Of a stretch of DNA of 34,716 nucleotides, positions 4,664 to 33,986 are shown piece by piece (positions within the stretch are counted from its first letter, which is position 1; every line of letters begins with the position of its first letter). The translations under genes and the position numbers were made by a program. The stretch is taken from the NCBI GenBank assembly GCA_019242175.1, contig JAFAVZ010000183.1:1-34716 (forward strand). The letters run 5' to 3'. This DNA comes from Acidobacteriota bacterium (lineage in GTDB: Bacteria; Acidobacteriota; Thermoanaerobaculia; Gp7-AA8). The notes beneath the pieces are model-generated. The model ran no database searches, was not told the origin of the DNA, and worked only from the letters and a program-made list of their open reading frames with translations.

Positions 4664-4807
4664 TCAACGTCGGCTGCTTGTTAGGACTTCACCAGTCATC
4701 CTGATGACCTCTTCATTTGTCAAAGGCACGAAATCCAGTCCTTCGTCCTTACACGTTCGATAGTCCGCTCCTGTCACGAGACGACAAGCATCAGCACGAT
4801 AAAGCAA
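4664..4807 (-). CDS. possible small ORF or gene remnant
   Basis: An open minus-strand frame of about 47 codons from a TTG, with coding-like composition including LTNEEVIRMTGEVL near its end. No ribosome site is visible before the TTG and an in-frame stop lies four codons upstream of it, so it may be the 3' end of a gene broken upstream. It stops 41 bases before the GTG of the Cys-rich ORF. No family is recognised. Confidence 0.22.
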   Translation of the reverse strand: MLYRADACRLVTGADYRTCKDEGLDFVPLTNEEVIRMTGEVLTSSRR

Positions 4808-4912
4808 GAGACTGGCGCCCGTTCAATGCGTTCAAGAAATGTCTTGATCTTTTCGTGTTGCTGACCCGGCCCCGCCCTTCCTTGCGGCGCTCATCGCCAC
4901 GAAGCATCCCTG

Positions 4913-4940
4913 CTGACGCGCCTCCCCCTTCCCGTACAAT
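4913..4940 (+). promoter_or_regulatory. sigma-70-like promoter of the VWFA gene, probably leaderless
   Basis: CTGACG (4913-4918), a 16-bp spacer and TACAAT (4935-4940) resemble a housekeeping promoter. The expected start of transcription falls at or one base before the ATG at 4948. No ribosome site precedes that ATG, which fits a leaderless message. Confidence 0.5.
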
Positions 4941-4947
4941 CTCTCTC

Positions 4948-6633
4948 ATGCGCCGCATCCTGCTCCCCCTGGTCCTCGCCGTCGGCCTTGCCGCGCAGGA
5001 GCGGCCGTCCGACCCCTTCTTCTCCGAAACCATCGAGGTGCGCATCATCAACGTCGACGCCATCGTCACGGATGGCAGCGGGCGGCCGGCGCGGGGGCTC
5101 ACGAAAGACGACTTCGAGGTCTTCGAGAACGGCAACCGGCAGGAAATCACCAACTTCGCGGAGATGACGGGCGGAGCGAAGGCGGGGGACGCGCAGGCGC
5201 CGAAAAGCGAGCCGCAACCGCAAAACCAGCAACAGCAGCAGGACGTGCGGCCGCGCAAGATCGTCGTCTTTCTCGACAACGCCTCGCTGCGCATCTTCAC
5301 GCGCAACAAAGTCTTCGAGGCGATGAAGACCTTCATCCGCCAGACGGTCCGGCCGGGCGACGAAGTCATGATCGTCGCCTGGAATCCGCCACTGGACATC
5401 GGCGTCCCGTTCACGGGCGACGTCGAGGCCATCCTCGCCACGATCGAGGCGATGAAGAACGAGCGGGCGAACGGCACGCTCTACGTCCAGGACCGCAAGC
5501 TCGCCGAGCGCGCGATCTCGGACATGGTCCTCGACTACAGCATGCTCGGCCAGACGCCGCCCATCGAAGTCGCCATCGAACAAGCCCGCCTCTACGCCGC
5601 GAAAGTCATGCACGAGCAGCGGGGCAAAGTCGCGGCGATGAAGAGCGTCATGAGCTCCATGCGCGGCCTGGAAGGGCGCAAGGTGTTCGTCGTCGTCACC
5701 GAATCGCTCTCCGATCGCGCCGCGCAGCCCATCTTCGACTTCATCGACGGCGTCAAAGAGCGCTTCACGAACGGCGGCAACTACAACGCCATGCGCGAGG
5801 GCAGCGCCTACGCCGAGCCGTCGTTGACGAACATCATGTCCGAGACGGCGAACAGCACCGGCGTCACGTTCTATCCGATCGACGCCGCCGGCCTCTCCGG
5901 CGACATGGAAACCATCTCCGCCGAAAACCTCGGGCTCGAGTACAACAACCCGTCGCGTCCGATGACGAGCCGCGACGAGCACCTCCAGACGCTGCGCACC
6001 ATCGCCGCGCAGACCGGCGGCGCCGCGCTCGTCGCCTCGAACAACTTCGCGCTCGCCTTCGACACGATCGGCAACGACCTCTCTTCCTACTACTCCATCG
6101 GCTACCGCGCGACGGGCGCGAAGCAGGACACCATCCGTTCCGTGCAGGTCCGCCTCAAGAACAAACGCGGATTGCAGGTGCGCACGCGCCAGGCATTCGT
6201 CGAACGCTCGACAACCTCGGAGATGAAGGACGCGGTCGCGGCGAACCTCTTCTACCCGATCGCGCGCAACGACCTGAACATCCACATCAAGACCGGCGGC
6301 GAGGCGAAGGTGGCGCCCGAAGAACATCTCGTCGTGCCGGTCGAAGTACGGATCCCGACGAGCGCCCTCACGCTTCTCCCGGATGGCACCGATCTCCGCG
6401 GCCGCTTCCAGAGCTACACCGCGTTCCTGCGCAGCGACGGCGCGGTTTCCGAGGTGAAGACGAACGTGCACGAGCTGCGGTTTCCGGCGGCGTCGCTGGA
6501 GAGGCGCAAGGAGATCACGCTCAAGCTCGACGTCACCGTCGACGCAAAGACCGAGGGCGTTTCGGTGGGCGTGATGGATGACGTTTCGCACGCGACGGGA
6601 TTCGCCGCGTTGCGATTGGAACCGTCGCTCTGA
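4948..6633 (+). CDS. secreted VWFA-related (Acidobacterial-type) protein
   Basis: 561 aa. I chose the ATG at 4948 because it gives a signal peptide (MRRILLPLVLAVGLAAQ) and follows a promoter directly. The N-terminal part (about 20-80) contains RIINVDAIVTDGSGRP and LTKDDFEVFENGNRQEI, the hallmark of the VWFA-related Acidobacterial domain family. A Gln-rich linker follows, then a VWA-like fold from KIVVFLDNASL (about residue 105) to about residue 390. The metal site is degenerate: DNASL in place of DxSxS. A C-terminal beta-sandwich completes the protein. The family is abundant in Acidobacteriota with no firm function; adhesion or protein interaction outside the membrane is inferred. Its last 52 codons are duplicated downstream at 6771-6927. 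Confidence 0.9.
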   Translation: MRRILLPLVLAVGLAAQERPSDPFFSETIEVRIINVDAIVTDGSGRPARGLTKDDFEVFENGNRQEITNFAEMTGGAKAGDAQAPKSEPQPQNQQQQQDVRPRKIVVFLDNASLRIFTRNKVFEAMKTFIRQTVRPGDEVMIVAWNPPLDIGVPFTGDVEAILATIEAMKNERANGTLYVQDRKLAERAISDMVLDYSMLGQTPPIEVAIEQARLYAAKVMHEQRGKVAAMKSVMSSMRGLEGRKVFVVVTESLSDRAAQPIFDFIDGVKERFTNGGNYNAMREGSAYAEPSLTNIMSETANSTGVTFYPIDAAGLSGDMETISAENLGLEYNNPSRPMTSRDEHLQTLRTIAAQTGGAALVASNNFALAFDTIGNDLSSYYSIGYRATGAKQDTIRSVQVRLKNKRGLQVRTRQAFVERSTTSEMKDAVAANLFYPIARNDLNIHIKTGGEAKVAPEEHLVVPVEVRIPTSALTLLPDGTDLRGRFQSYTAFLRSDGAVSEVKTNVHELRFPAASLERRKEITLKLDVTVDAKTEGVSVGVMDDVSHATGFAALRLEPSL

Positions 6634-6770
6634 GAGCTCGTGTCATCCTGAGCCCCGAAGAGGGCGAAGGATCTCCCAGCTCGGACGCTGATCGCCCGCA
6701 TCAGCAGATCCTTCGCCGTCTTCGCGGCTCAGGATGACAGGCCGCAGGTCGCTTCTTTCATGACACGCTA
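6477..6770. repeat. tandem duplication, copy 1 (VWFA gene 3' end plus palindromic element)
   Basis: This is a direct repeat of about 294 bp. Copy 1 holds the last codons of the VWFA gene, its TGA stop, and a type-1 palindromic element. The same order recurs at 6771-7064. The two copies differ by scattered substitutions and a 2-base indel just after the stop, so the event is not recent. Confidence 0.9.
6642..6738. repeat. type-1 palindromic repeat, copy A
   Basis: The element begins GTCATCCTGAGC and ends GCTCAGGATGAC. The inner parts GCGAAGGATCT and AGATCCTTCGC also pair, so it can form one long imperfect hairpin of about 97 nt. It lies 8 bases after the VWFA stop. Related copies lie at 6938, 17039 and 27458. 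No transposase is nearby. Confidence 0.85.
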
Positions 6771-6927
6771 GCGGTTTCCGGCGGCGTCGCTGGAGAGGCG
6801 CAAAGAGATCACGCTCAAGCTCGACGTCACCGTCGACGCAAAGACCGAGGGCGTTTCGGTGGGCGTGATGGATGACGTTTCGCACGCGACGGGCTTCGCT
6901 GCGTTGCAGTTGGGACCGTCGCTCTAG
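6771..6927 (+). pseudogene. orphan 3' end of the VWFA gene
   Basis: This reproduces the C-terminal part of the VWFA protein, including a reading of SVGVMDDVSHATGFAALQ, and ends in TAG rather than TGA. There is no start codon, ribosome site or upstream coding part. Several changes are third-position, such as AAG to AAA, and a few alter residues near the end (RLE to QLG). It is a by-product of the tandem duplication and is unlikely to be translated. Confidence 0.75.
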
Positions 6928-6937
6928 GAGAGCCCGT

Positions 6938-7034
6938 GTCATCCTGAGCCCCGAAGAGGGCGAAGGATCTCCCGGCTCGGACGCTGATCGCCCGCATCAG
7001 GAGATCCTTCGCCGTCTTCGCGGCTCAGGATGAC
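6938..7034. repeat. type-1 palindromic repeat, copy B
   Basis: Nearly identical to copy A because it was carried along in the tandem duplication. It has the same outer GTCATCCTGAGC / GCTCAGGATGAC arms and inner GAAGGATCT / AGATCCTTC arms. It lies between the orphan VWFA end and the convergent PhnD-like gene, where its hairpin could stop transcription in both directions. Confidence 0.85.
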
Positions 7035-7063
7035 AGGCCGCAGGTCGCTTCTTTCATGACAGG

Positions 7064-7798
7064 TTAGAGGTAGCTCTCTTCGCTCCCTACGGCAAAGCCC
7101 GCGAAGCCGAGCTCCGCGAGCGCCGCGCCATCCGTCTCGTGCATCGCCAGCAACGCATCGGCGATTTGCTCCTTCATCGCAACGTCCTTGCGGACGATCA
7201 CAGGCTGGATAGGGAACGGTCCCCACGTCTCGACCACGCGCAGTTGCTCGCGGAGAGACGGGTCGAGACGTTGGCGCAGCAGCAGAGCGTTCGAGTCGAT
7301 CGCCGCGGCGTCGATCACGCCGCTGAGGACCAGCTCGAGGGACCCGAGGTGGGAGCCGGAGTGGAGGAGACGGGCGAAGAAGTCTTCGCTGCCGGCGCGT
7401 TCGAGCATCGAGAACCAGCCGCTCTTCGAATTGCGGTCGTTGAAGCCCCACCGCTTGCCGCGCAGATCGTCGAACGTGCGGAACGGAGATGCGGCGCGCA
7501 CGACGACGTCCGCGAAATAGACCGGCCGTCCCTCGGCGCGCGCGTCGAGCGGGACGGGCAGCGGCAGCAGTTCGATCAACGAATGGCGACGCAGCACGGG
7601 GAACGATGGCGAGCAGATGAAGCCGATGTCGGCGCGGCCGTCGGCGAACGGATCGTCGTCGCCTTCGAGCGGGCCGGAGATGCGCGTCTCGAACGCGACC
7701 ACGGTCGGGACGCCGGTCGCGGCTTCGATGCGGTGCGCGACGAGGGAGAAGAAGTCGTTGGGAATCGAGGGAGCGAGGTAGCTGATGAGTTTCAGCAC
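7064..7798 (-). CDS. orphan PhnD-like (phosphate/phosphonate type) substrate-binding protein
   Basis: 244 aa from the GTG at 7798, beginning MLKLISYLAPSIPNDFF. The fold follows the periplasmic-binding class of ABC phosphonate-binding proteins: a middle part reading DDLRGKRWGFNDRNSKSGW and later LELVLSGVIDAAAIDSN. These correspond to the conserved 'DLkGKr.af.d..S.SG' ligand loop and the 'v..G..DaaaiDs' hinge of that family. No signal peptide is visible and no permease or ATPase gene is adjacent. It may therefore be a cytoplasmic sensor-type member, or the true start may lie elsewhere. The ligand is unknown. It is divergent from the DUF2723 gene with only a 33-bp gap. Confidence 0.75.
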   Translation of the reverse strand: MLKLISYLAPSIPNDFFSLVAHRIEAATGVPTVVAFETRISGPLEGDDDPFADGRADIGFICSPSFPVLRRHSLIELLPLPVPLDARAEGRPVYFADVVVRAASPFRTFDDLRGKRWGFNDRNSKSGWFSMLERAGSEDFFARLLHSGSHLGSLELVLSGVIDAAAIDSNALLLRQRLDPSLREQLRVVETWGPFPIQPVIVRKDVAMKEQIADALLAMHETDGAALAELGFAGFAVGSEESYL

Positions 7799-7831
7799 GC
7801 CACGGCATCGTATGCTAATTTCCGCCCGCCG

Positions 7832-9625
7832 ATGCGCACCCTCCTCGTCGCCGCCGTTGCCGTTTTCGTCGTCGCGTTCGGCGTGTACATCGCGACGCTC
7901 GCGCCGACGGTCGGCCTCACCGACAGCGGCGAGCTCACCGTCGCCGCGTGGTCCCTCGGCAACGCCCATCCGCCCGGCTTTCCGCTGTACGTCCTCGTGA
8001 CGCATCTCTTCACGCTCCTGCCGATCGGCAACGTCGCCTGGCGCGTGAACCTCGGCTCGGCGTTCTTCGCCGCGCTCGCCGCCGGCGCGATGGTCTTCGC
8101 TGCGGGCGCGCTGCTGCGCGGCTCGCGCGTCGCCGTCGCGGTCTTCGCCGGCTTGCTCCTCGCGTTCTCGCGGACGCTCTGGAACTACGCCACGGTGGCC
8201 GAGGTTTATGCGCTGAATACGTTCCTGCTCGTGAGCGTGTTCGCGCTCGTCATCCAGTGGTTCCACACGCGGCGCGATCGGTTGCTGTACATCGCCGCCT
8301 TCGTGTTCGGCCTCGGCCTGTGCGTGCATCACGTCACCGTCGGGCTCTGCATCGTCGGCATCGCCGCGATTGCGTGGCGTGCGGAGAAAAAGACGGTGCT
8401 GATTTGCGCGCTGCTCGCGATCGGAGCGCTCGCGGTGTACGCGTATCTGCCGCTCGCAGCGTCGCACAATCCGCCGCTGAACTGGGGTGATCCCGACTCG
8501 CTCGCGCGCTTCGTCGATCACGTCACCGGCAAGCAGTATCGCGGCTATCTGAAGTCCACCTCCGGCCAGTTCGACACCATCCTCACCACCCTGGGCCGCG
8601 ATCTGGGACCGGGCTGGGCGCCGCTCGCGTTGATCCTCGCCGCGTGGGGACTCATCGCCCTGTGGCGCGCGGAGAAGCCGCTGTTCTTCTTCGTCGTACT
8701 GATCGCCGCGGCGAACTTCGCCTGGTCTTCGTTCTATCCGATCGTCAACGATCGCGACGCGTACCTCTTGCCGGCCATCCTCGTGCTGATCCTCGCCGCC
8801 GCTCATGGCGCCGCGTCGCTCGTGCCGGCGCGGTACGCGTGGGGCCTGCTGATCGTGCCGGCGCTGGGGTTGATCGTCGCGTATCCGCAACGCAACCGCA
8901 GCGGCTTCGTCGTGCCGAAGCTGTACGCCGAAAACGCGCTGCGGCAGATGCGTCCGAATGCGCTGCTGCTCACCGGCGACTGGCAGCTGTACGCGCCGCT
9001 GATGTACTTCCAGGAAGTCGAGCACCTGCGGCCGGACGCGATCGTCGTCGAGAGCGGGATGCTCAATCGGCCGTGGTACGTCGCGCAGCTCGAACGGCGG
9101 CATCCCGACTTCATGCGCGCCGTGAAGCCGCAGCTCGACGCGTACCGCCCGGTGCTGGAGAAGTGGGAATCGGACGAGACGCTGAAGCCGCAGATGTTCG
9201 CGCTCGTCGCAAGCCTCGTGCAGGCGATGATCGAGACGCGGCTCGCGTCCGGCGCGCCGGTCTACGCCTCGACGGAGCTCGTCGCCGGGAAAGAAAAGGT
9301 CTACGTCCCGGTGCTGCGTGCGGTCGGGATGAAGTACCCGATCGTTCCGCACGGATTGCTCGTCGAGTGGGGCGGCGCGGATCCGGGACCGTTGAACGTC
9401 GACCTGCACGGCATCGCCGACGGAACCGACGCATACGAGGACGATGATCCCGCGCTGACCGAGGTGCTGCCGGCTTACCGGGGTGCGCTGCTGATGCGCG
9501 GGCGCTATCTCGCGCTGCGCCGCCGTTGGGACGATGCCGCGGCGGCGTACAAGCTCGCGCAGTCGTTGGATCCGGAGAACTCGACGATCCAGCGCGAGTT
9601 GGCGGGCGTGGAAGCGATGCGGTGA
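7832..9625 (+). CDS. DUF2723-type polytopic membrane protein (glycosyltransferase-like)
   Basis: 597 aa from the ATG at 7832. After a first membrane helix (about residues 4-22) comes APTVGLTDSGELTVAAWSLG, then NAHPPGFPLYVLV. These are the acidic loop and HPPG(F/Y)PLY motif of DUF2723 proteins, which resemble GT-C protein O-mannosyltransferases. About nine further hydrophobic segments extend to roughly residue 360. The C-terminal third is soluble and ends in a TPR-like helix pair (ALRRRWDDAAAAYKLAQSL). The expected role is transfer of sugars from a lipid carrier to proteins outside the membrane; donor and target are unknown. A perfect 31-bp inverted repeat follows the stop and may act as its terminator. 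Confidence 0.85.
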   Translation: MRTLLVAAVAVFVVAFGVYIATLAPTVGLTDSGELTVAAWSLGNAHPPGFPLYVLVTHLFTLLPIGNVAWRVNLGSAFFAALAAGAMVFAAGALLRGSRVAVAVFAGLLLAFSRTLWNYATVAEVYALNTFLLVSVFALVIQWFHTRRDRLLYIAAFVFGLGLCVHHVTVGLCIVGIAAIAWRAEKKTVLICALLAIGALAVYAYLPLAASHNPPLNWGDPDSLARFVDHVTGKQYRGYLKSTSGQFDTILTTLGRDLGPGWAPLALILAAWGLIALWRAEKPLFFFVVLIAAANFAWSSFYPIVNDRDAYLLPAILVLILAAAHGAASLVPARYAWGLLIVPALGLIVAYPQRNRSGFVVPKLYAENALRQMRPNALLLTGDWQLYAPLMYFQEVEHLRPDAIVVESGMLNRPWYVAQLERRHPDFMRAVKPQLDAYRPVLEKWESDETLKPQMFALVASLVQAMIETRLASGAPVYASTELVAGKEKVYVPVLRAVGMKYPIVPHGLLVEWGGADPGPLNVDLHGIADGTDAYEDDDPALTEVLPAYRGALLMRGRYLALRRRWDDAAAAYKLAQSLDPENSTIQRELAGVEAMR

Positions 9626-9633
9626 GGAACGTA

Positions 9634-9705
9634 AAAATGTAGGGCCGGCTCTCCAGCCGGCCCAATATCAACGCTGGGCCGGCTGGAGAGCCGGCCCTAC
9701 ATTTT
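9634..9705. repeat. type-2 palindromic repeat, simple form (perfect 31-bp arms)
   Basis: The left arm (9634-9664) and right arm (9675-9705) are perfect reverse complements of 31 bases around a 10-base loop. Each arm is itself a dyad (GGGCCGGCT, four bases, AGCCGGCCC), so the DNA can fold as one long hairpin or as two adjacent short ones. The outer ends are AAAATGTA and TACATTTT, giving an A/T edge on both sides like a bidirectional terminator. Related copies lie at 20532, 24115 and 31077. Confidence 0.9.
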
Positions 9706-9741: not shown

Positions 9742-10116
9742 ATGCAAGCCGAAATCAACGTCACGCCGCTGGTTGATGTCTGCCTCGTGCTTCTCATCAT
9801 CTTCATGGTCACCTTGCCGGCGATGGTCAACGGCCCGGTCGATCTGCCGAAGACGCAGACCGGCGAGCCGGTCGACGACGCGAAGTCGACCATGATGGTG
9901 ACGGTGAAAGACGACGGCTCGGTCTACATCGAGACGCTCGCCGTGCGCGGCGAGCAGGTCGCCACCGAGATGCGCCGCCTCCACGAGCTCTATCCGAAGC
10001 GCTCGATCTCCGTCCGCGGCGACAAGAAGGTTCCGTACGGCTCGGTCGTAGATGTGCTCGACGCCTGCCGCGCCGCCGGCTACGACAACGTGGGATTGAT
10101 CTCGCAGCGCGGGTGA
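9742..10116 (+). CDS. ExbD/TolR-family biopolymer transport protein
   Basis: 124 aa. The N-terminus reads MQAEINVTPLVDVCLVLLIIFM, the ExbD/TolR signature. Asp12, at the start of the single membrane helix (about 10-28), is the conserved proton-relay residue. A periplasmic domain of about 95 residues follows and ends with the usual VPYGSVVDVLDACRAAGYDNVGLIS. The partner motor protein (ExbB/TolQ) and TonB are not in the window, which is unusual because they are normally adjacent. The cytoplasmic tail before INVTPLVDV is shorter than typical. It would energise TonB-dependent transport or a Tol-like system together with ExbB encoded elsewhere. The stop TGA lies at the edge of a type-3 repeat. Confidence 0.9.
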   Translation: MQAEINVTPLVDVCLVLLIIFMVTLPAMVNGPVDLPKTQTGEPVDDAKSTMMVTVKDDGSVYIETLAVRGEQVATEMRRLHELYPKRSISVRGDKKVPYGSVVDVLDACRAAGYDNVGLISQRG

Positions 10117-10160
10117 GCGGGCGTCCCGCCCGCGAGCCGACGGGCGTCCTCGCCCGGCGG
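10114..10160. repeat. type-3 hairpin repeat
   Basis: It begins GGTGAGCGGGC. There are two consecutive hairpins: GCGGGC / GCCCGC (10117-10133) and CGGGCG / CGCCCG (10141-10156). The same pair in the same order, with compensating changes, opens the array at 23051. The TGA stop of the ExbD gene is part of the repeat's first bases. Confidence 0.7.
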
Positions 10161-16796: not shown

Positions 16797-17048
16797 TGGC
16801 AGACGGAGATAAAGTCGCGCAAATGCACTGGAGCGAGATCCCCGGCTGGTTCCAATGGCGATCCGCACAGGAAGAGGCCGTCCGCCACTTCGGGGCAGTC
16901 GCTTCGTCGAAGTCGGCAAGTACCGCTGCCGCCGCCTCTGCTCCCTCGGCGAAATCGTGCAGCAGAGCGGCAAGACACTCACGGCCGACGAGCGCGAAGA
17001 GTGCGCGAGATCGCTCAGGCGGCGTTCATCCGCAAAGTGTCATCCTGA
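16797..17048 (+). pseudogene. decayed, internally deleted class I methyltransferase
   Basis: Three pieces lie in different frames. The first is MADGDKVAQMHWSEIPGWF continuing to EEAVRHF. The second, from about 16890, is RGSRFVEVGKYRCRRLCSLG, a methyltransferase motif I (FVEVG) with a corrupted glycine loop. The third is VREIAQAAFIRK, which reads into VSS and a stop. The whole is about a third of a normal length, so the middle has been lost as well as frame. The last codons, GTGTCATCCTGA, belong to the type-1 palindromic repeat. I see no way for it to make a working enzyme. Confidence 0.7.
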
Positions 17049-17134
17049 GGCGCGAAGACGCCGAAGGATCCCCGGCCTGGACGCGTCACGCCCGCACCAG
17101 GAGATCCTTCGCCGTCTTCGCGGCTCAGGATGAC
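17039..17134. repeat. type-1 palindromic repeat, copy C
   Basis: Outer arms are GTCATCCTGAG and CTCAGGATGAC; inner arms are CGAAGGATC and GATCCTTCG. It forms the 3' border of the methyltransferase remnant, supplying that remnant's in-frame stop. The unit is related to the copies at 6642, 6938 and 27458 but diverged in the loop. Confidence 0.85.
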
Positions 17135-17300
17135 ACGCGGCTTCGCAGTGCGGCGCGCGTCGCACCGCGTCCTCATTGATGTAAAGCCCGAAACGCTTCA
17201 TCAGCTGAGCGAACATCATCAGCTAGGCCGGCGTCGACTCGATCACATAGGGCTTTCTCCTGCACCGCCGCAGCTCGGGGAACGTGTCCGGCGAAATCAT
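17135..17300 (-). pseudogene. possible gene remnant downstream of the GGDEF-EAL gene
   Basis: From an ATG that overlaps the GGDEF-EAL stop (ATGA), the minus strand reads 25 codons ending RKPYVIESTPA and TAG. Beyond the stop, in the same frame, it continues with MMFAQLMKRFGLYINEDAVR until the type-1 repeat begins. Both halves have coding-like composition. This looks like an old gene with an in-frame stop whose 3' part was replaced by the repeat. The family is not recognised. Confidence 0.3.
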
Positions 17301-20531: not shown

Positions 20532-20633
20532 ACGTAGGGCCGGCTCTCAGCCGGCCGCAGTCAAGAATGATGCGGCGGGCCTCGCCCGCCGCGACCGTGC
20601 TTCCCGGGGCCGGCTAGAGAGCCGGCCCTACGT
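20532..20633. repeat. type-2 palindromic repeat, composite form
   Basis: Outer arms are ACGTAGGGCCGGCTC and its complement, ending GCCGGCCCTACGT. An extra inner hairpin, GCGGCGGGC / GCCCGCCGC, lies between them. The right arm holds the last codons and TAG stop of the Rieske oxygenase on the minus strand. A near twin is at 31077-31180. It sits between convergent genes and may act as a two-way terminator. Confidence 0.88.
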
Positions 20634-23050: not shown

Positions 23051-23162
23051 GTGAGCGGGCGTCTCGCCCGCGACCGGCGGACGTCTTCGTCCGGCGGCGG
23101 GTGCACCTGTACACGTACCGCGACACGAGACGTGTCGCGGCTGCGGGCGGGACGCCCGCGCT
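23051..23162. repeat. type-3 hairpin array
   Basis: Four consecutive hairpins lie within 112 bp: GCGGGC/GCCCGC (23055-23071), GGACG/CGTCC (23079-23092), CCGCGACAC/GTGTCGCGG (23118-23140) and GCGGGCG/CGCCCGC (23143-23159). The first two match the element at 10114 in order and shape. It fills the gap between two minus-strand genes. Confidence 0.7.
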
Positions 23163-24069: not shown

Positions 24070-24114
24070 GTCCGCTTCGACGCAGGGGAAGCGCCGCGGT
24101 TAGTCGCGAGCAGA

Positions 24115-24184
24115 AATGTAGGGCCGGCTCTCCAGCCGGCCCAGCATCGAGATTGGGCCGGCTCGAGAGCCGGCCTCTACGTTT
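24115..24184. repeat. type-2 palindromic repeat, simple form, diverged
   Basis: Same layout as the element at 9634 but with several mismatches between the arms, for example GGCTCGAG against CTCCAGCC and an inserted T near the right end. It lies 12 bases past the OmpA-like stop, where it may serve as terminator between that gene and the adhesin-like gene. Confidence 0.85.
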
Positions 24185-27447: not shown

Positions 27448-27457
27448 TGAACGCGCT

Positions 27458-27547
27458 GTCATCCTGAGCCGCGCAGACGGCGAAGGATCTCCTGGCGCGG
27501 GCGACGAGCGCACATGCCGGGAGATCCTTCGCTGCGCTCAGGATGAC
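27458..27547. repeat. type-1 palindromic repeat, copy D
   Basis: Outer arms are GTCATCCTGAGC and GCTCAGGATGAC; inner arms are CGAAGGATCTCC and GGAGATCCTTCG. It lies between convergent genes, with the sigma-factor stop codon inside its right arm. Confidence 0.87.
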
Positions 27548-28074
27548 ACGTTGCAACTGCACTCCACGCACCCGTGGGTCGCGCACGAGCCGCACGCAGC
27601 GCGCACTTCTTTGCGCAGCGCCTCGCGTGCGCGGAACACGCGTACGGCGGCGTTGTTCGCGCTGATGCCCGCCTCCTCCGCGAACGCCTTCACCGGCACG
27701 TCCTCGATCTCCACGCGTTGAATCGCCGCCGCGTACTCCGGCTTCAGATTCTCCGCGAGCGGGCCGACGCAAGCGCAGATCGCGTCGTGCAACTCGGGCG
27801 GCGGCGCGACGGCGCCCCCCATCTCCTTCGCCAACATCTCGAGCGCGCGGCTGCGGACGTCGCGGCGGCGGTAGTGATCGATCACCGCATTGCGCAGCAG
27901 CCGATAGAACCAGGCGATCGCCGACTCTTCGTCGCGCAGCTCCCCTTCCCGCTCGATCGTCTTCACGAAAGCGTCCTGCAGAACATCCTCGGCCAGTCCG
28001 CGGTCGCCGAGGCGGCGCTCGAGGAAGAGGAGGAAGTCGCGATGGCTGGCGACGAGCCGCTCAGCGACCGCCAA
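27538..28074 (-). CDS. ECF-type RNA polymerase sigma factor with Cys-rich tail
   Basis: 178 aa from a TTG at 28074 that overlaps the end of the DUF1028 gene by 14 bases. Region 2 (about 8-75) has LAEDVLQDAFVKTIER and AWFYRLLRNAVIDHYRR, the core-binding and -10 recognition helices. Region 4 (about 110-160) has a helix-turn-helix around VPVKAFAEEAGISANNAAVR. The C-terminus CGSCATHGCVECSC holds five cysteines and one His, likely a zinc or redox switch, a tail seen in some ECF proteins. No separate anti-sigma gene is adjacent. The final VSS and TGA come from the type-1 repeat. It is probably produced only when the DUF1028 message is translated. Confidence 0.88.
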   Translation of the reverse strand: MAVAERLVASHRDFLLFLERRLGDRGLAEDVLQDAFVKTIEREGELRDEESAIAWFYRLLRNAVIDHYRRRDVRSRALEMLAKEMGGAVAPPPELHDAICACVGPLAENLKPEYAAAIQRVEIEDVPVKAFAEEAGISANNAAVRVFRAREALRKEVRAACGSCATHGCVECSCNVSS

Positions 28075-31077: not shown

Positions 31078-31180
31078 CGTAGGGCCGGCTCTCCAGCCGG
31101 CCGCAGTCGAGAAATGATGCGGCGGGCAACGCCCGCCGCAACCGTGTTTCATCGGGCCGGCTGGAGAGCCGGCCCTACGT
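31077..31180. repeat. type-2 palindromic repeat, composite form
   Basis: Outer arms ACGTAGGGCCGGCTCTCC and the complement ending CCGGCCCTACGT enclose an inner hairpin GCGGCGGGC / GCCCGCCGC, as in the copy at 20532. It starts on the final A of the broken gene's stop codon and ends 10 bases before the TonB receptor stop, so it separates convergent genes. Confidence 0.9.
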
Positions 31181-33545: not shown

Positions 33546-33986
33546 CTATGCGTTGCTGATGGCAGCAGACGAAGCGAGCGTCGCGGGCGGCCCGCGCACG
33601 CTCACGGTCGCGACGAAGCGGCTTTCCGCTTCGACGACCCGCGGCGGTGTGAAACGCTCGAAGATGGCGAGCGCGGCGAGGAGAACCGGCGCCGACTGGG
33701 CCGCCGTCAGCGCGGCAGAGAAGTGCGCGAGGCTGCCGTCGCCGTGATGCGGATCGAACGGCTCGTGATGATGATCGTGATCGTGATCGTCGTCATGATC
33801 GTGATCGTCATGATCGTGATCGTGGTCGTCGTGATCGTGGTCGTCATCCTCTTCACCCCAGTGCGAGGCTTCGCCCTCGTGCTCGTGAGGGATGAGGTCG
33901 TGAAACGCGAGATGGAGCGTCGGCACGACGACCGAGCCGCAGAGGAACGCGGCAAGGATCCATGCGGACGGGGAGCGCAGTTTCAC
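33546..33986 (-). CDS. His/Asp-rich membrane protein, probable metal binding
   Basis: 146 aa from the GTG at 33986. A GTG at 34040 would add an 18-residue arginine-rich extension. A hydrophobic segment (about 7-24) may be a signal anchor. Residues 34-82 are dominated by alternating His and Asp (DHDHDDHDHDHDDHDHDD and similar), able to bind several Zn, Ni, Co or Cu ions. A second hydrophobic helix lies at about 89-110, before FTPPRV and a short tail. Many small proteins near metal-responsive transporters have this make-up. It precedes the TonB receptor by 15 bp on the same strand, so they are probably one operon. Confidence 0.78.
   Translation of the reverse strand: MKLRSPSAWILAAFLCGSVVVPTLHLAFHDLIPHEHEGEASHWGEEDDDHDHDDHDHDHDDHDHDDDHDHDHHHEPFDPHHGDGSLAHFSAALTAAQSAPVLLAALAIFERFTPPRVVEAESRFVATVSVRGPPATLASSAAISNA

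Follow-up and report, generated by a model that had tools for sequence, protein, structure and literature searches.

The inverted repeat at positions 9,634–9,705 of the window, the whole 34,716-nucleotide stretch of acidobacterial DNA analysed here, is very probably a REPIN, that is, a non-autonomous miniature element composed of two inverted, GTAG-tagged REP hairpins with a 12-nt spacer and a cognate RAYT. We regard its identity as a REPIN with a RAYT as firm; its movement and any part in ending transcription we infer. An earlier note on this DNA had described an inverted repeat here whose 31-bp arms match perfectly around a 10-base loop and can each fold on their own, and folding reproduces both features. 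The stem of 31 bp with its 10-nt loop is more stable than any of 200 shuffles, both as single-stranded DNA (−43.5 kcal/mol, z −13.6) and as RNA (−68.4 kcal/mol, z −12.7; likewise 0 of 200). By itself, the left-arm REP forms a 9-bp hairpin of −12.7 kcal/mol, and the right-arm REP is its exact inverse copy. Each arm's own hairpin runs GTAG, GGCCGGCT (8-bp stem), a CTCC loop and AGCCGGCC, with the first three bases of the GTAG unpaired in the folded unit. An Rfam search of the window gave nothing above gathering scores and a tRNA search of the window gave no tRNA. The repeat lies between a TMEM260-like reading frame, whose start is placed at 7832 by a simple gene caller, and an ExbD/TolR gene (Table 1).

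Table 1 The REPIN at 9,634–9,705, its parts and neighbours, and further REPINs in the window
Feature	Position	Strand	Evidence
REPIN, two head-to-head REPs, A-rich/T-rich ends (AAAAT...ATTTT)	9634..9705	.	stem/loop fold; 65 similar perfect doublets genome-wide
Left REP unit GTAGGGCCGGCTCTCCAGCCGGCCC	9639..9663	+	exact copy of 25-nt unit; self-folding
12-nt spacer AATATCAACGCT	9664..9675	.	12 nt in 31/66 sampled doublets; ~9x more variable per base than arms
Right REP unit, inverted	9676..9700	-	exact minus-strand copy
Upstream ORF, TMEM260-like domain (PF11028)	7139..9625	+	stop ends 13 nt before left GTAG
Downstream gene ExbD/TolR (PF02472)	9742..10116	+	start 41 nt past right CTAC
Composite REPIN, long spacer with inner GCGGCGGGC/GCCCGCCGC hairpin, left arm 1 base short	20534..20631	.	
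Second REPIN, 12-nt-spacer class, right arm diverged (indel + substitution)	24113..24184	.	long stem: one mismatch, one bulge
Composite REPIN, 50-nt spacer, inner GCGGCGGGC/GCCCGCCGC hairpin as in 20534-20631	31079..31178	.	

The repeat belongs to a large family. Within the window, the core GCCGGCTCTCCAGCCGGC has nine matches at ≤3 mismatches, two of which are one palindromic site matched on each strand, whereas shuffles average 0.27 and never exceed 2, and the diverged copy that the earlier note had placed near 24,115 does exist, at 24,113–24,184. The host draft genome (5,607,540 bases in 686 contigs, 86% completeness, 5.3% contamination) holds 537 REP units at ≤3 mismatches, 271 forward and 266 reverse, where a control pattern finds none, which refutes a repeat of few copies. 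It also holds 65 doublets in which both arms are perfect and a spacer of 10–16 nt separates them, each counted once because the search pattern is its own reverse complement. This abundance, together with the RAYT gene described below, bears out the earlier suggestion of a REP- or MITE-like element whose Y1 transposase is encoded at another site. The same REP occurs in only 4 of 39 other genomes searched, all from the family of the host, at 8, 10, 30 and 56 units (≤3 mismatches). With its unpaired tag 5′ of a palindrome, high copy number and mostly extragenic position, the unit fits a GTAG REP.

Architecture was examined in 61 regions of the host genome (726,192 bases or 12.95%, window included), which are no random sample because most were chosen for copies of the GTAG REP or of a second palindromic family. 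At ≤6 mismatches these regions yield 155 REP units, where the reversed pattern yields 4, and 92 of the 155 are exact. The units form 66 head-to-head doublets; among neighbouring units within 120 bases, 66 of 71 pairs are head to head and 5 head to tail. Spacers measure 12 nt in 31 doublets, 13–15 nt in 12, 29 nt in 1 and 46–50 nt in 22, the last class enclosing the inner GCGGCGGGC/GCCCGCCGC hairpin. Four of the six 14-nt spacers (GCAGTCGAGNNTGATG), three of these four from one tandem array, resemble the long spacer without its inner hairpin, and a nested insertion or a deletion is a possible reading of the two forms. Across 36 non-redundant 12-nt doublets, 25 of 1,800 arm bases depart from the consensus versus 54 of 432 spacer bases (p 4e-22). 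Conservation continues as AAAAY before GTAG and RTTTT after CTAC for about 5 bases past the tags and then fades, so the element is about 72 bases long and coincides with the repeat as first delimited. Inverted REPs, conserved ends and a less conserved spacer fit a REPIN. Singlets carry on average 0.90 mismatches (n = 20) versus 0.59 in doublets (n = 128), a difference with p 0.29.

Profile searches of the host genome recovered three RAYT genes, here called C210, C12 and C281 after their contigs, all of them with the NCBIfam model REP_Tyr_transpos and the first two also with Pfam Y1_Tnp. The C210 protein scores 91.2 bits with the former (cut-off 80) and 24.5 with the latter, barely above the cut-off of 23; C281 scores 88.5 and, below the cut-off, 19.2; C12 scores 72.8, below the cut-off, and 46.5. 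In alignment, the C210 RAYT carries DHVH (the HUH motif), WQ and YVAQNP with the catalytic Tyr, and its best solved relative is 4er8, 'TnpArep' (E 0.00016). Its gene is flanked by one perfect-arm REPIN on each side, and its stop codon is the TAG of the downstream REP's GTAG. This is the Y1-Tnp gene that the earlier note had proposed to look for, and it probably spreads the hairpin family of 9,634–9,705, by analogy with characterized enzymes of its kind. The other two RAYTs stand beside different palindromes: C281 (58% identical to C210) beside GTAGGGGCGGGCTTC... and GTAGGGACCGGCTTC... units, with one GTAG REP unit of the 9,634–9,705 family downstream, and C12 (36% identical to C210 over 102 residues) beside a pair of GAGCGGGCGTCCCGCCCGC-like units on one side. 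Among 18 genomes of the host family, its own included, 17 have a RAYT match, above the cut-off in 13. The nearest RAYTs in a collection of named genomes are from Acidobacteria gp7 AA10 (63%), Centralia_MAG_134 (61%) and Thermoanaerobaculia (60%), followed by Stahlbacteria and Phycisphaerales at 51–55%, and since RAYTs of these other phyla reach such identity, the gene may have been transferred between phyla.

By analogy with related TnpA-REP enzymes, as described in the accessible text of PMC8266576, the RAYT, a single-strand HUH endonuclease, would recognise the folded single strand of each REP by its GTAG, stem and loop, cut beside the REP and move or copy the doublet. The match between the two arms would then follow from their being copies of a single REP that has to be recognised, and selection would act on each small hairpin. 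Copies would persist just 3′ of stop codons, the positions at which they are least harmful or at which a hairpin with a T-run may end transcription in both directions. A search for empty sites with joined flanks returned 62 spanning hits, with no clean empty site in the two arrays inspected (L159 and L167), and no insertion polymorphism was found in the loci examined. The same tandem arrays contain apparent internal-deletion remnants of REPINs at L159:12580–12595 (GTAGGGCCGGCCCTAC) and L167:9724–9742, which look like products of hairpin slippage. For the site at 9,634–9,705, ExbD relatives are present in 19 of 20 genomes (own included), and no TMEM260-like neighbour of ExbD was seen in loci from 11 relatives.

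The alternative that fares best, though we consider it improbable, is that the repeats are no longer mobile and are kept mainly as two-way terminators, their uniformity coming from selection for termination. Gene context from a simple self-trained gene caller, rather than a published annotation, places 61 of 62 REPIN doublets (4 of the 66 were dropped before counting) between genes, where 10.8% would be expected. Twenty of the 62 lie at contig edges, and the other 41 comprise 21 in convergent, 17 in tandem and 3 in divergent gaps, an excess of convergent (27% of intergenic bases, p 0.001) and a deficit of divergent positions (29%, p 0.0015). A facing stop codon lies within 17 bases in 39 of the 50 REPINs that have one, three of the 39 overlapping it, and 16 of 17 REPINs in tandem gaps are closer to the stop than to the next start. 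At least four T within the 7 bases after CTAC are found on both sides in 17 of 49 REPINs and on one side in 20, with a background of 0.02 per site, and 9,634–9,705 itself gives four terminator-like matches, on both strands, versus 0.4 in shuffles. All of this favours termination, and, given T-rich ends and a position after stops, it is plausible that REPINs act as two-way terminators, the role that the earlier note had suggested. Termination by itself, however, would not preserve tag, loop and near-identity across hundreds of copies, it leaves the RAYT gene between two REPINs unexplained, and 12 of the 49 REPINs lack a T-run on either side. Comparable placement at 3′ ends is known for REPs of other phyla, according to the available portions of PMC3733652, and placement after stop codons may merely mark harmless sites. 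Three lone REP units (L153:16453, L155:12034 and L160:12753) are followed directly by runs such as TTTTGTTTT, in the manner of intrinsic terminators; these are perhaps REPs taken over as terminators.

Selection for pairing between the arms, as a long hairpin or a cruciform, is an alternative to which we give still less weight. The perfect 31-bp arms at 9,634–9,705 and the 65 doublets with both arms perfect are what this idea would lead one to expect, and the two deletion remnants do resemble hairpin slippage. The earlier note had read exact pairing as a sign of recent origin or of selection for pairing and had proposed compensatory changes as the check; such changes appear inside the arms and not between them. 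Counted over 148 units at ≤5 mismatches (7 of the 155 exceeded this and were dropped), the eight stem pairs of the small hairpin include 4 compensated double changes against 0.2 expected, along with 9 G-T pairs, 18 broken pairs and no unpaired double change; that broken pairs outnumber both compensated and G-T pairs counts against our preferred explanation. Other points on that side are the lack of a clean empty site in the arrays inspected, singlets not significantly more diverged than doublets, the RAYT loci that show no recurring GTAG unit and the small share of other genomes with this REP. Between arms, the 37 sampled doublets with a change contain 27 changed stem bases, and for none of these does the opposite arm carry the matching change; a few of these changed doublets and units are copies inside one tandem array. 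A relative (G014) whose units were picked by similarity alone has an outermost stem pair of G-C in 4, C-G in 46 and A-T in 6 units by hand tally, so that all 56 are paired, and a second relative (G006) has 7 of 8 paired. In three further RAYT loci (L035, L038 and L042) neighbouring inverted REPs have mutually different stems, the units having been picked for internal pairing and not for a difference between arms. The perfect 31-bp match is thus accounted for by both arms being copies of one REP, with compensation within rather than between arms; judged from these comparisons, the small hairpin plus its loop is what is kept.

A third alternative is that the element is a MITE belonging to a classical DDE insertion sequence bounded by terminal inverted repeats. 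This would account for a short, inverted, many-copy repeat, but the GTAG tag, the self-palindromic arms and a Y1 HUH transposase gene with such a repeat on each side leave it next to no probability. The conserved ends of the element mirror each other (AAAAY/RTTTT).

The REPs flanking RAYT genes at related loci vary in stem while keeping features of the loop. We analysed 108 RAYT loci, leaving out the duplicates L115, L122, L132 and L133, although several organisms still contribute two loci. Three of these duplicates, from genomes of the host family, are identical over the stretches compared (2,800–3,000 bases; 400 for L115) to loci of named records: L132 to L037 (Acidobacteria bacterium Centralia_MAG_134), L133 to L036 (Thermoanaerobaculia bacterium) and L115 to L074 (Acidobacteria bacterium gp7 AA9). 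Membership of this family points to Acidobacteriota as the phylum of the window. A recurring GTAG plus 18-mer, picked by tag and recurrence only, is present in 51 loci and absent in 57, including a near relative (L036, 60% identity). A perfect stem of at least 7 follows the GTAG directly in 33 of the 51 (shuffled expectation 0.04), and 36 of the 51 form 7 or all 8 stem pairs around a loop of 3 or 4 bases. The fifteen loci whose loop has 4 bases, selected for pairing, show 12 distinct 5′ stems, and every stem position takes at least two Watson-Crick pairs; when stem halves are swapped between these loci, on average 3.9 of 8 positions pair, and all 15 have C as the third loop base. Control tags gave such stems in 17 of 35 (GTGG), 2 of 31 (GGAG), 1 of 22 (GCAG), 0 of 4 (CTAG) and 0 of 11 (GATC) cases; from the count for GTGG, the tag itself varies. 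A first RAYT tree of 34 of the 36 well-paired loci left 16 of 31 inner branches open, and branch support is weak in both of the quick trees made. On a second tree of 32 rows, from which L091 and L121 were dropped for very long branches (a misread frame is suspected) and in which L035 and L089 have no plain HUH match, loop length requires 5 changes against a shuffled mean of 10.8 and a minimum of 7 in 300; the closing base is less clear, with 10 changes against a mean of 15.1 and 1 of 300 shuffles as low. Such label shuffles do not remove shared ancestry.

The window contains further repeats. A second palindromic family, without a tag, has the form TGTCATCCTGAG-NNN-CGNAGA-NNN-CGAAGGATC and lies at 6641–6739, 6937–7035, 17037–17136 and 27457–27548. 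The host genome has 403 + 400 units at ≤2 mismatches (control 0), and a search of 118 other genomes of the phylum found only 2 units, in one genome. The two NNN triplets covary: they pair fully in 54 of the 57 exact units, against a shuffle mean of 13.9 and a maximum of 24. As a candidate REP of RAYTs without GTAG flanks, this repeat gave just scattered matches (≤2 mismatches) in 112 loci (L031, L032 and L035–L144), with the exception of an inverted pair about 870 bases past the C281 RAYT in L135. Units of the GAGCGGGCGTCCCGCCCGC palindrome lie at 10115–10133, 23053–23071 and 23143–23161, and 118 + 137 units (≤2 mismatches) occur in the host genome. Two tandem copies of about 295 bases, 95–96% identical and including the TGTCATCCTGAG hairpin, occupy 6477–7071, from the 3′ end of the ORF at 4717–6633 onwards, and short ATGATCGTG/ATCGTC-like repeats stand in a run at 33753–33869.

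Taken more broadly, and only as a tentative proposal that we think more likely wrong than right, Acidobacteriota would have a multi-RAYT GTAG-REP system in which three RAYTs each stand beside their own palindromes, REPINs have come to serve commonly as two-way terminators where gene pairs converge, and the single REP hairpin, not the doublet, is the unit of selection and recognition. The findings add Acidobacteriota to the phyla in which GTAG REPs stand beside a RAYT gene, and the arm comparison speaks to the question of whether selection acts on the REP or on the REPIN. Pairs of RAYT and REP in which the stem has changed yet still pairs and the loop is conserved should be useful for testing how a RAYT chooses its REP. 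The literature searched, which covered few subscription papers, yielded no earlier account of GTAG REPs beside a RAYT gene in Acidobacteriota; Nunvar 2010 (PMC2817692) does not contain the string 'Acidobacteri', and RepRanger (2025), in its accessible part, counts palindromes in three Acidobacteriota genomes.

Among known systems, and as far as the accessible text of each source goes, the enzyme and its repeat resemble TnpA-REP group 3, equivalent to subclass 2.5 (Corneloup 2021, PMC8266576; motifs in PMC6006769), in the short perfect palindrome, the informative loop base and the DHxH, WQ and YxxxNP motifs. Compared by motif rather than by tree, DHVH and YVAQNP of the C210 RAYT are intermediate between subclasses 2.5 (DH[LF]H, YI[VI]ANP) and 2.7 ([ND]HVH, YI[LR][NQ]NP). 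Nor do they match class 3 (W[TA], Y....Q), whose transposases, with atypical flanking structures, are those that PMC6006769 lists in Acidobacteria. The REPINs of Pseudomonas fluorescens SBW25 (Bertels and Rainey 2011, PMC3116915), in the portions of that paper available, likewise consist of two inverted REPs with conserved ends and a spacer that is less conserved, lie outside genes and are linked to a RAYT. The elements described here differ from them in REP sequence, host phylum and spacers of 12 or 46–50 nt, and also in that doublets are not significantly more conserved than singlets and no compensation between arms is seen. A further parallel is with the GTAG REP super-family (Di Nocera 2013, PMC3733652), whose accessible sections describe the same GTAG tag, 8-bp stem, short loop and head-to-head dimers, convergent and tandem gaps near gene ends, tags that supply a TAG stop, and REP-flanked RAYT genes. 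In those sections GTAG repeats are attributed to Proteobacteria, Cyanobacteria, Chloroflexi and the PVC group, and all that is named from Acidobacteria is transposases with unrelated terminal inverted repeats on either side, whereas here the GTAG REPs are those of an acidobacterial genome.
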